Assembly (NCBI GenBank): GCA_903944135.1
Contig: CAJAQL010000001.1
Coordinates: forward strand, 1 to 44,040
DNA from: an uncultured Parcubacteria group bacterium
GTDB lineage: Bacteria; Patescibacteriota; Minisyncoccia; UBA6257; 2-01-FULL-56-20
Length of the DNA: 44,040 nt
Direction of reading: 5' to 3'
Every line of letters begins with the position of its first letter. Position 1 is the first letter of the stretch. Below are positions 35,381 through 39,262 of the stretch, one piece after another. A model generated the notes under the pieces. The model was not told the DNA's origin. It worked only from the letters and a program-made list of their open reading frames with translations, and did no database searches. The position numbers were made by a program, and so were the translations under genes.

Positions 35381-36889
35381 CTACGATACGTGATGCTGTT
35401 TTTTCATTTCCTCTTCAGCCTCACCTTCCAGTTCGTCTTTTTTATTTTTCGCATTTTCCGCAAGAAGTTTGAGCTGATCATCGGTAAGCGTGTTCAGTTT
35501 CTTCATGCGCAGGGTAAGCTCATCGCGGTTATTGCGTTCCGGATCATCGAGCACCTCATCAAAGAGCGATGCAAGGATCCAGCCGACGCGCCGGCTTTCG
35601 GGCAAAGCAAGTTCCCGCATCACATCATCACCCGTTATCTTGAGCATCTTCGGCGAAAGCGGATCCCGCTTCACTTTATCGATCATAAAAAGCAGATGGC
35701 GTAATTTGTAAGGAACCGCCTTTTTGACGCCCGAACCGATGCGATCGGCTTCGCGCACTTTCAAAAGATCATCGATGTTTTCGGATCCCACGCGTACGAC
35801 GAACCGGCGCACGCCCGCCGGAGATATCTCACCGACATTATAGTGAAACATGTGCCGCCGAACGAGATGGGCGACCTGGTCCACGAGATCCTTCGGGAAT
35901 CGCAGACGGTCAAGCGCCTGCACGGTCATTTTCGCGCTCACGTATTCGTGCTGATAGAACGTGGAATCCGGCCCATCGCCGGATTTTACGCGCGGCTTGC
36001 CGACGTCATGCAGAAGTGCCGCGAGCCGCACCGGAAGTGAATAGCCCTGCTTTGCGGTATAATCGAGCGCCTTCACGTCATGTTCGAACACGCTGTAAAT
36101 ATGATGCTTGTTCTGGCCGACGCCAAGCCCCTCGCGAAGTTCCGGCAGGACATAGCGCAAAAGATCGAGCTCCTCGAGAAGCAGAATTCCGCGCGCAGCC
36201 TGCGGCGTCATGATCATCTTCTCGAACTCGTCGCGAATGCGTTCCTTCGCGATCTCCTCAAGCCCGCCCGCCAATTTTTCTATCGCCCGCCGCGTGTTGA
36301 GCTCGATCTCAAAATCCAGTTCCACTGCGAACCGCACCGCACGCATCAAGCGGAGCGCATCCTCACGGAACCGCTCTTCGGCATTCCCGACCGCGCGGAT
36401 GGATTTTTTCCTGATGTCTTCCTGCCCGAAAAACGGATCGGTGATGCCACCCTTCAAGTCCATCGCCATCGCATTCACGGTGAAATCACGCCGCGAAAGA
36501 TCTTCTTCGATCGTCTTTGCAAACTTCACCTCATCCGGATGCCGTTTATCGGAATATTTTCCTTCGATGCGGTAGGTCGTCACCTCAACCGCTTTTATTT
36601 TCTTCTCTGTTTTCTCTTTGTCATTCTCGCGGAGGCGAGGACCCGTGCTTTCCGGGAGCTCTTCCGTTTTCACGATCACCGTCCCGAAGTCATTCTCATA
36701 CACACTGTCCGGAAATAACCCCTGCACTTCTTTCGGTTTCGCATTTGTCGCAATATCCCAATCTTTCGGTATCCGTTTCAGTATCATGTCGCGCACGCAA
36801 CCTCCCACGAGATACGCCTCAAAACCCGCCCCCGCGAGTGTGGCGCAAATATGAGAAACCTCTTCCGGAACCGCAAAGTCCTTTTTCAT
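35381..36889 (-). CDS. CCA-adding enzyme/poly(A) polymerase family with HD domain
   Basis: AYLVGGCVRDMILKRIPKDWDIATNAKPKEV, RRDFTVNAMAMD, DALRLMRAVRFA, AALLHDVGKP; start at MKKDFAVPEE. Confidence 0.93.
   Translation of the reverse strand: MKKDFAVPEEVSHICATLAGAGFEAYLVGGCVRDMILKRIPKDWDIATNAKPKEVQGLFPDSVYENDFGTVIVKTEELPESTGPRLRENDKEKTEKKIKAVEVTTYRIEGKYSDKRHPDEVKFAKTIEEDLSRRDFTVNAMAMDLKGGITDPFFGQEDIRKKSIRAVGNAEERFREDALRLMRAVRFAVELDFEIELNTRRAIEKLAGGLEEIAKERIRDEFEKMIMTPQAARGILLLEELDLLRYVLPELREGLGVGQNKHHIYSVFEHDVKALDYTAKQGYSLPVRLAALLHDVGKPRVKSGDGPDSTFYQHEYVSAKMTVQALDRLRFPKDLVDQVAHLVRRHMFHYNVGEISPAGVRRFVVRVGSENIDDLLKVREADRIGSGVKKAVPYKLRHLLFMIDKVKRDPLSPKMLKITGDDVMRELALPESRRVGWILASLFDEVLDDPERNNRDELTLRMKKLNTLTDDQLKLLAENAKNKKDELEGEAEEEMKKQHHVS
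36620..36644. repeat. REP-like palindrome half-element inside the CCA-adding enzyme gene
   Basis: gtcattctcgcggaggcgaggaccc; translates on the coding strand as GPRLREND. Confidence 0.7.
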
Positions 36890-36994
36890 CTCAATAACTA
36901 TAAGCCATTTCGGGCCCGGCGAGAAATCTTTTCCTTCCGAAAAAATCCTTCGCATAGCTCAGGACAACGGCAACAGAGATCATCTGCATGAAGC

Positions 36995-38161
36995 CTATCT
37001 CACCACGGCACCGAATTCTTCGGCGGTCTTTTTCTCAAGTGTCTTATGCAAAATATCGATCTCGTCATTCGTGAGCGTGCGGTCGCCTGCGCGATAGGTG
37101 ATCCGATAGGCATAGCTTTTTTTGTCGACACCGAACTTTTCGTCATTCTCGTATTCATCGAGGAGTTCGACCTGCTCGACAAGATCCCCCGCCACGTCAC
37201 GGACAAGATCGAAATAAACGTTCGGCATGAAATCCTTTTTCACCACAAAAGAAATGTCGCGGACGATCGCCGGATATTTGCTCACTTCGACGAATTTCTG
37301 TCCCAAATGAAGCTGCTTTTTTACGCGCTCATCATCCGACCACAACAGCCGGATGTCCGGCAACTGCATACTGATGATGGCAAGACGTTCCAGGCCGAAA
37401 CCGAAGGCCCAGCCATTGTATCCTTCAAGCCCCATTTTTCGGAGCGAGCTCTTTTTCGCCATGCCGCCGCCCAAGATCTCGAGCCACTGGCCATTGACAT
37501 CAACCTCAACTTGAAGCGATGGATCCGTGTACGGGAACGTATCATCCAAAAAACGGTATTTCACGTCCTTGCCGAAAACGCCCTGCACGATCCCGGTCAG
37601 CACATTCTTCAATTCGTCGATCGGAAGAATCCCTTCGCTGTCAGGAACCAAATACAACCCATCCATCTGATGGAAGACGTTCATGTGATGGCGGTCGATC
37701 TCATCTTTGCGATAGACCTTCCCGTAGCATATGACACCGAGCGGTTTCCGGGCGGCAATCTTCTCCTTGATCTCCGGTAAGTTCAGATAGTAATACCACA
37801 TGACCGTGTCATGGGTGCGCAGAACGTTCTTGTCGTCGACGTAATAGGTATCGGACATGCTCCGCGCCGGATGCTCGGGCGGAAAATCAAAAAGGTCAAA
37901 AGTGATATTTGCCGGCACGACCTCCGGAACAATGACGTTGTCGAAATTCTCGATGATCGGCAGACTTCTGACACGTGCGACGATATCGAATAACGGACTT
38001 CCCGGCGTGCGCGGAAGGTCGGGCATCGCAAGATAGCGCTTCACGCGCTCCGCATAGGCATCATTCCGCGCGAGCAAAGGTTGCAATGCTTTTTCCTGCG
38101 CATCAAGCGAAATTTTATATTCCTTACTTTCGAGCCGTGTTTTATCGTAGAGTGATCCCAT
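36995..38161 (-). CDS. single-chain phenylalanyl-tRNA synthetase (PheS core plus C-terminal FDX-ACB)
   Basis: VYRKDEIDRHHMNVFHQMDG, FPYTDPSLQVEVDVNGQWLEILGGGM, GWAFGFGLERLAIISMQLPDIRLLWSDDER, then SKYPAIVRDISFVV...YDLVRDVAGDLVEQVELLDEY...YAYRITYRAGDRTLTNDEIDILHKTLE. Confidence 0.93.
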   Translation of the reverse strand: MGSLYDKTRLESKEYKISLDAQEKALQPLLARNDAYAERVKRYLAMPDLPRTPGSPLFDIVARVRSLPIIENFDNVIVPEVVPANITFDLFDFPPEHPARSMSDTYYVDDKNVLRTHDTVMWYYYLNLPEIKEKIAARKPLGVICYGKVYRKDEIDRHHMNVFHQMDGLYLVPDSEGILPIDELKNVLTGIVQGVFGKDVKYRFLDDTFPYTDPSLQVEVDVNGQWLEILGGGMAKKSSLRKMGLEGYNGWAFGFGLERLAIISMQLPDIRLLWSDDERVKKQLHLGQKFVEVSKYPAIVRDISFVVKKDFMPNVYFDLVRDVAGDLVEQVELLDEYENDEKFGVDKKSYAYRITYRAGDRTLTNDEIDILHKTLEKKTAEEFGAVVR

Positions 38162-38200: not shown

Positions 38201-39262
38201 TTATTCAGCGGCCTCCGCGCGTTTCTCATCTTTTTTATGCTCTTCGCCTTCCAATATTTCGAACAGTTTTTTCTGTATCGCGATCGACTCGGCCGGCTCC
38301 CAAAGTTCAGCATCGGTGCGATCCTGATAGCGGCGCTTCAAGGCGACGATATTTGCCGCAATGTCCTTTTCGTCCGCTGTGATCTTTTCCTCTTTCCGCA
38401 TCGCCCCCATGATCAAACTTGCGGCGATCTGTTTTCCGATCGCCTCTCTCTCCTCCTTCTCTAATTCTTCTGCCGTTTTCTTGACCTGCTTCAAATAATC
38501 CTCAAGTGAAACGCCTGCCTTCTGAAGCTCTTCATCGCGATGCTCGAAAAACGCGGCGAGCTCCTGATCCACGAGCAATTTCGGTATCTTTATCTTTGTC
38601 TTCTGGGCGATCGCCTGCACCATCGCCTCGCGCCGAACTTCTTTTTCGTCGCGCTCCTTGCCCTCTTTCAAATTCCGCTCAAGCTCCTCCCTGAACTCGG
38701 CGACATTCTTATACGGACCGAATTGCTTCACGAAATCATCGGTCAGCTCGGGCAATGCTTCATCGCCTTCCTTACCCGATTCGCCGCCACGGAACATCTC
38801 ACGGAGATGATGAATGGCCTCATCAACTTCCTCGGTTTTCACTTCAACCGGCTTTTTCTCTTCTGCGATCTTCTTCGCAATGCTCTTGTAGTCCGGGAGT
38901 CCTATCTCAGGCATAAGCGCGAAGCGAGCCGTGAAAACAACGGGGTTTCCAGGCGCCAGTTTCACGAGTCCGACCTCCGGCGTACCCAAAATAGACAGCT
39001 TTTCCGACCCGATGATCTCACGGATCGCTTCGGGAAGCGCTTTGTGCGCCGCCTCTTCCAAAAGCTCCACCGGATCCATCCGCTCCCGCACCATGGCAGG
39101 CGGCACTTTCCCTTTGCGAAAACCAGGGAGTGAAATGTCTTCACCGGCCTCTTCCAACGCCTCGCCTTCATATTCAGTGACGACATCAGCCGCAAGCTCC
39201 GCCTCGAAGGCGATCTCTCCGTCCTTTTCTTTTGTTTTCTTCAAATTCAAATAGCTTGCCAT
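38201..39262 (-). CDS. tig: trigger factor lacking a recognisable PPIase domain
   Basis: N-terminal ribosome-binding SLPGFRKGKVPPAMV; C-terminal helical domain; no FKBP-like segment between VEVKTEEVDEAIHHLREMF and LPELTDDFVKQFG. Confidence 0.9.
   Translation of the reverse strand: MASYLNLKKTKEKDGEIAFEAELAADVVTEYEGEALEEAGEDISLPGFRKGKVPPAMVRERMDPVELLEEAAHKALPEAIREIIGSEKLSILGTPEVGLVKLAPGNPVVFTARFALMPEIGLPDYKSIAKKIAEEKKPVEVKTEEVDEAIHHLREMFRGGESGKEGDEALPELTDDFVKQFGPYKNVAEFREELERNLKEGKERDEKEVRREAMVQAIAQKTKIKIPKLLVDQELAAFFEHRDEELQKAGVSLEDYLKQVKKTAEELEKEEREAIGKQIAASLIMGAMRKEEKITADEKDIAANIVALKRRYQDRTDAELWEPAESIAIQKKLFEILEGEEHKKDEKRAEAAE

Follow-up and report, generated by a model that had tools for sequence, protein, structure and literature searches.

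The window examined here, a 44,040-nucleotide stretch of Parcubacteria DNA, carries a gene that we hold with high confidence to encode its cell's only phenylalanyl-tRNA synthetase (PheRS), a single chain like the mitochondrial enzyme FARS2/MSF1 that has probably replaced pheST by horizontal transfer; that it charges tRNA-Phe, works as a monomer and does not edit is inferred. The architecture is already known from the PheRS-M family (FARS2/MSF1), listed as a mitochondrial-like family in the AARS Online database paper (PMC11580382), and what appears to be new here is the bacterial form. According to a 2010 review (PMC3275996), the heterotetrameric PheRS is a conserved trait of every prokaryote known, and no class II synthetase other than mitochondrial PheRS is known to be monomeric. 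The open-licence literature yielded no account of a single-chain PheRS in bacteria; subscription journals lay outside the scope of that search, and absence of a description is unproven.

The gene and its neighbors

The gene is a minus-strand open reading frame with an ATG start (Table 1). A first-pass annotation, made from the sequence alone, had described a class II catalytic core followed directly by an FDX-ACB module within one 388-residue frame and no pheT following on the same strand, and both observations hold: Pfam models PF01409 and PF03147 recover the same plan with a gap of about 10 residues between the two domains, and the position expected for pheT is occupied by a nucleotidyltransferase gene of the polyA-polymerase/CCA type, with trigger factor on the upstream side. 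The frame is a real gene and not a chance one, given its Pfam matches to the core and, over the full model, to FDX-ACB. The PF01409 core, the arginines of motifs 2 and 3 and the Phe-pocket residues are all present, as the sequence criteria for a class IIc PheRS demand; in the pocket, F209, P210 and T212 are invariant among 49 homologues, and Y211 and A252 nearly so.

Table 1. Positions in the window of the single-chain PheRS gene, its domains and key residues, and the flanking genes.
Feature	Position	Strand	Evidence
Single-chain phenylalanyl-tRNA synthetase gene, 388 aa	36995..38161	-	ORF; Pfam; PDB search
Class II catalytic core tRNA-synt_2d, residues 59-283	37313..37987	-	PF01409, 177-178 bits, E 6e-52
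FDX-ACB anticodon-binding domain, residues 294-388	36998..37282	-	PF03147, 94/94 of model, 81-84 bits, E 7e-23
Motif 2 arginine R151 (GKVYRKDE)	37709..37711	-	Invariant in 49 homologues
Phe-pocket motif F209-P210-Y211-T212 (FPYT)	37526..37537	-	Conservation in 49 homologues; comparison with FARS2, E. coli and SrmL
Motif 3 arginine R259 (GFGLERLA)	37385..37387	-	Invariant in 49 homologues
Downstream neighbor, polyA-polymerase/CCA-adding-type nucleotidyltransferase	35381..36955	-	PF01743 + PF12627 + HD
Upstream neighbor, trigger factor	38201..39262	-	PF05697 + PF05698

Resemblance to the mitochondrial enzyme

Human mitochondrial PheRS is the best sequence match in the PDB (201 bits), with bacterial PheS proteins scoring 132 bits or less and the highest of these aligning to the core alone. 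The motif correspondence with human FARS2 proposed in the first-pass annotation is borne out by direct alignment, in which GWAFGFGLERLA of the open reading frame pairs with GWAFGLGLERLA of the human mitochondrial protein and SKYPAIVRDISF with SKYPAVINDISF; further pairs are YFDLVRDVAGDLVEQV with FYDLVRTIGGDLVEKV, and YRITYRAGDRTL with YRITYRHMERTL. An AlphaFold2 model derived from 49 aligned single-chain proteins (pLDDT 93.4, pTM 0.89) agrees with human mitochondrial PheRS over the whole length of the predicted fold (Foldseek E 5.5e-37, TM 0.77/0.74, rmsd 2.9, 386 columns), and the human mitochondrial structure ranks above all bacterial PheS. The identity of the C-terminal domain as FDX-ACB is supported both by the full-length HMM match and by this fit of the predicted fold. 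None of the NCBIfam PheRS models reaches its curated cut-off on the 388-residue protein, the highest-scoring models being the uncharacterised SrmL family (NF051887) at 230.9 bits (cut-off 300) and pheS_mito (TIGR00469) at 227.5 bits (cut-off 258.35). Against a viral fold library, all matches were either weak or to other class II synthetases.

PheRS genes of the host genome and a complete relative

The assembly to which the window belongs is 856 kb long and 91% complete, and profile searches find in it a single copy each of the FDX-ACB domain and the PheRS core, both within the single-chain gene. Neither PheT nor a B3/B4 editing domain was found in this 91%-complete assembly by searches that were positive in control genomes, and no second PheS was found there, the sole additional match being a weak one (20 bits) to a 487-residue open reading frame. 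There is also no recognizable tRNA-Phe(GAA) gene among the 44 tRNA matches in the assembly, a gap that we attribute to the 9% of the genome that the assembly lacks. We tiled the genome of a relative, G146, which is a single contig of 923,369 bases and 100% complete, to settle the doubt about tRNA-Phe and PheT. It contains one single-chain PheRS and two tRNA-Phe(GAA) genes, and no PheT was found in it save for the FDX-ACB part of the single chain; the single chain is thus its only PheRS candidate, with tRNA-Phe(GAA) present. A pheS-pheT pair, which could have overturned the initial reading, is found in neither genome, and a pheT hidden on missing contigs is ruled out by G146 together with the class survey described below.

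Two features of tRNA genes were noted in passing. The second tRNA-Phe of G146 lies in a group of about 20 tRNA genes in less than 3 kb (C1:439820-442640; L226), as if in a mobile element or prophage. A gene called as tRNA-Arg(TCG) at G000:C22:7744-7867 (L200) has an insertion of about 50 nt in its anticodon region and is itself contained in an insertion that interrupts a 23S rRNA gene.

Distribution of single-chain and split forms

The class survey covered 287 genomes with a completeness of 90% or more: the single-chain form occurs in 87 and a PheT over the cut-off in 166, and only one genome (G081) has both, a mutual exclusion with a Fisher p of 4e-43; PheT over the cut-off is missing from 86 of the 87 single-chain genomes, single-contig ones included. 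Approximately 30% of the sampled Paceibacteria genomes thus carry the single-chain form, and this division of a class between single-chain and PheT-containing members is apparently undescribed, as we found it nowhere in the searchable literature. The one genome with both carries them on different contigs, the single chain on C57 and pheST on C2, and contamination cannot be excluded. The window's genome and its 40 nearest relatives (n=41) include 14 with the single chain, 21 with split PheRS, six with neither, and none with both. Elsewhere in the phylum, outside the class, 347 genomes were sampled, and 29 of them, from five families, have the single-chain form. A search of the GTDB species set gave 548 matches, the best 80 of which carry Patescibacteria or Parcubacteria names (Kaiser-, Nomura-, Zambryski-, Taylor-, Colwell-, Vogelbacteria and others) or belong to other bacterial MAGs.

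The single-chain PheRS therefore has a patchy distribution, occurring in many Paceibacteria (Parcubacteria) and in some other families of the phylum. The suggestion in the first-pass annotation that the lineage relies on such an enzyme is upheld in that the genome has neither PheT nor a separate PheS, and requires amendment in that the trait is patchy and not that of one genome. The forms even switch within a genus: g146 contains genomes with the single chain (G281, G313), with a mini-PheT (G142) and with a larger PheT (G175, G243), and genera g93 and g58 are likewise mixed. A few genomes gave little or nothing: no single-chain PheRS, PheS or PheT was found in G282 (one contig, 100% complete), where there were only cross-hits to other open reading frames, and the PheRS searches gave zero matches in G216, G619 and G654 and only a weak one in G487. 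No single-chain PheRS gene was found among IMG/VR viral contigs, and the matches examined in phage and plasmid collections were ordinary PheS and SrmL-like relatives only; as far as these matches go, carriage of the gene by phages or plasmids is rejected.

Inferred loss of editing and reduced forms of PheT

The B3/B4 domain is missing from 75 of the 76 single-chain-only genomes searched. The exception (G253) encodes a free-standing B3/B4 protein of 233 residues, an editor of a kind absent from the rest of the genomes searched. In other genomes of the class, PheT matches begin at about position 158 of the model and lack the N-terminal OB domain, and in G142 (L110) and G207 (L109) PheT is reduced to 396 and 439 residues respectively, retaining B5, CLM and FDX-ACB without B3/B4; PheS in these mini-PheT lineages is only 254-257 residues long. 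Because a mini-PheT without B3/B4 exists besides the single-chain form, editing would have been lost by more than one route. In family f75 (G289, G206; L106, L107) a free protein of 143-165 residues resembling the N-terminal OB domain of PheT (PF01588) is encoded beside the single-chain gene, between it and tyrS; in G289 the start of valS follows, giving the order tyrS - OB - PheRS - valS (tyrS and valS named from translated open reading frames). This small protein has the look of a leftover from a PheT that was otherwise lost. We note that the monomeric state of the single-chain enzyme and its lack of editing rest on inference from the domain plan and the missing genes, without an assay.

Origin of the single-chain form

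In the tree of catalytic cores, the split PheS proteins of the class nest among ordinary bacterial PheS, and the single-chain forms, human FARS2 and SrmL lie across a 96/89 branch from split PheS. In concatenated trees the bacterial single-chain genes group as one clade (support 95/95 to 99/92), within which the family of the window's genome is not itself a clade (p 1.8e-5). Because the forms switch within families and genera, and because this family is broken up in the gene tree, the evidence favors horizontal replacement of pheST as the best account of the distribution, and differential loss remains possible; the direction of replacement is an inference. We note also that 26 of 93 single-chain loci (L006-L018, L025-L104) are no more than 350 bases from a tRNA-Met(CAT) or tRNA-Thr(TGT) gene. 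Genes for tRNA are common landing sites for transferred DNA, and this proximity is only suggestive as a hint of transfer.

The relationship to the mitochondrial enzyme is less clear. One explanation, which concerns origin alone and is compatible with the function proposed here, is that the bacterial clade and FARS2 are products of two independent fusions, and we regard this as nearly an even proposition. The position of FARS2 is unresolved, since trees joining it with split PheRS are nearly as good (delta lnL <1, p 0.41-0.51), and the mitochondrial side of the trees is a single long human branch. FARS2 does, however, adjoin the single-chain clade in both the core (65/40) and FDX-ACB (92/60) trees, and shares with it a short linker and an SK(Y/F)P entry to FDX-ACB. 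The label "mitochondrial-type" given to the gene initially thus stands for architecture and fold, while shared descent with FARS2 is not resolved by trees that place it adjacent with weak support and do not reject the alternatives. A common origin of the two enzymes is suggested, not shown. We also entertain, tentatively, the idea that the single-chain PheRS is a bacterial invention that spread horizontally in Patescibacteria and that the mitochondrial enzyme derives from it or from a common ancestor, rather than from loss of domains in the organelle.

It seems improbable that the single chain arose locally and several times by fusion of a resident CPR pheS to the 3' end of pheT. Such fusions would give exactly the domain order observed, and both the stepwise shrinkage of PheT in related genomes and the free OB domain beside the f75 single-chain genes are as expected. 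However, CPR PheS falls inside the ordinary bacterial group whereas the single-chain core branches outside the whole of split PheS, and a core tree made to unite single-chain forms with the split PheS of their own class is rejected (p 0.012), although on the concatenated set, with only three split genomes of the class, the same joining gives p 0.10-0.11; with all bacterial single-chain forms in one clade, repeated fusion is unneeded. We give very little credence to a third proposal, that the gene is a secondary SrmL-type PheS-like paralogue with another substrate and that the real pheST is hidden in an unassembled part of the genome, for although SrmL is the top NCBIfam match and the window's assembly is incomplete, PheT is missing even from single-contig genomes such as the complete G146, true SrmL proteins score 423-524 bits with NF051887 and form a separate 100/100 branch, and in its Phe pocket the single chain keeps the GWAFG alanine and the FP(Y/F)T motif, in place of which true SrmL has HPYT or HYYT; SrmL identity is ruled out by cut-off, pocket motif and tree, and the proposal is already largely refuted.

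Proposed mode of action

With no biochemistry available, the mechanism is a proposal by analogy. The monomer would activate phenylalanine with ATP in the catalytic core, as the mitochondrial enzyme does; the C-terminal FDX-ACB domain would then swing round to hold tRNA-Phe by its GAA anticodon, and phenylalanine would be transferred to the tRNA without post-transfer editing by B3/B4. A single clade of such enzymes is envisaged to have replaced pheS-pheT, probably horizontally, in many Paceibacteria and in some other families of the phylum.

Implications and comparison with known systems

The frequency of the single-chain form among sampled Paceibacteria contrasts with the published statement of a universal prokaryotic heterotetramer (PMC3275996), and its replacement of the split enzyme matters wherever pheT serves as a marker gene. 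A bacterial single-chain PheRS makes the origin of the mitochondrial-type enzyme testable, and natural bacterial systems that, by inference, lack PheRS proofreading would allow Phe-to-Tyr mistranslation to be measured.

Compared with FARS2/MSF1, the bacterial protein likewise joins the core to a C-terminal FDX-ACB within a single chain, lacks an editing domain and has a matching fold along its whole length, but the identity is only about 32%, the N-terminal region differs, and the score is below the TIGR00469 cut-off. The Phe pocket is FPYT in this protein and FPFT in both FARS2 and split bacterial PheS, and the bacterial protein, unlike its mitochondrial counterpart, is the only PheRS of its genome. 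With the alpha2beta2 enzyme of bacteria (PheS + PheT) it shares homologous core and FDX-ACB domains and conserved motifs 2 and 3; it differs in being a single chain without PheT or B3/B4, in carrying FDX-ACB on the catalytic chain, and in lacking the long N-terminal coiled-coil arm from its predicted fold. The split mini-PheT systems of G142 and G207 resemble it in the absence of B3/B4 but have two chains. SrmL, the "PheS-related mystery ligase" (NF051887), is also a single chain with a core and then an FDX-ACB-like tail, although the true SrmL proteins of Azotobacter, Glutamicibacter and a 635-kb phage sit far off on a branch of their own and do not have the FPF/YT motif in the pocket; the phage gene (LR745206.1, uncultured; L126:3845-4930) encodes an SrmL-type single-chain relative of PheS with 423 bits to NF051887, and the similar genes on Azotobacter and Glutamicibacter plasmids are annotated as hypothetical.
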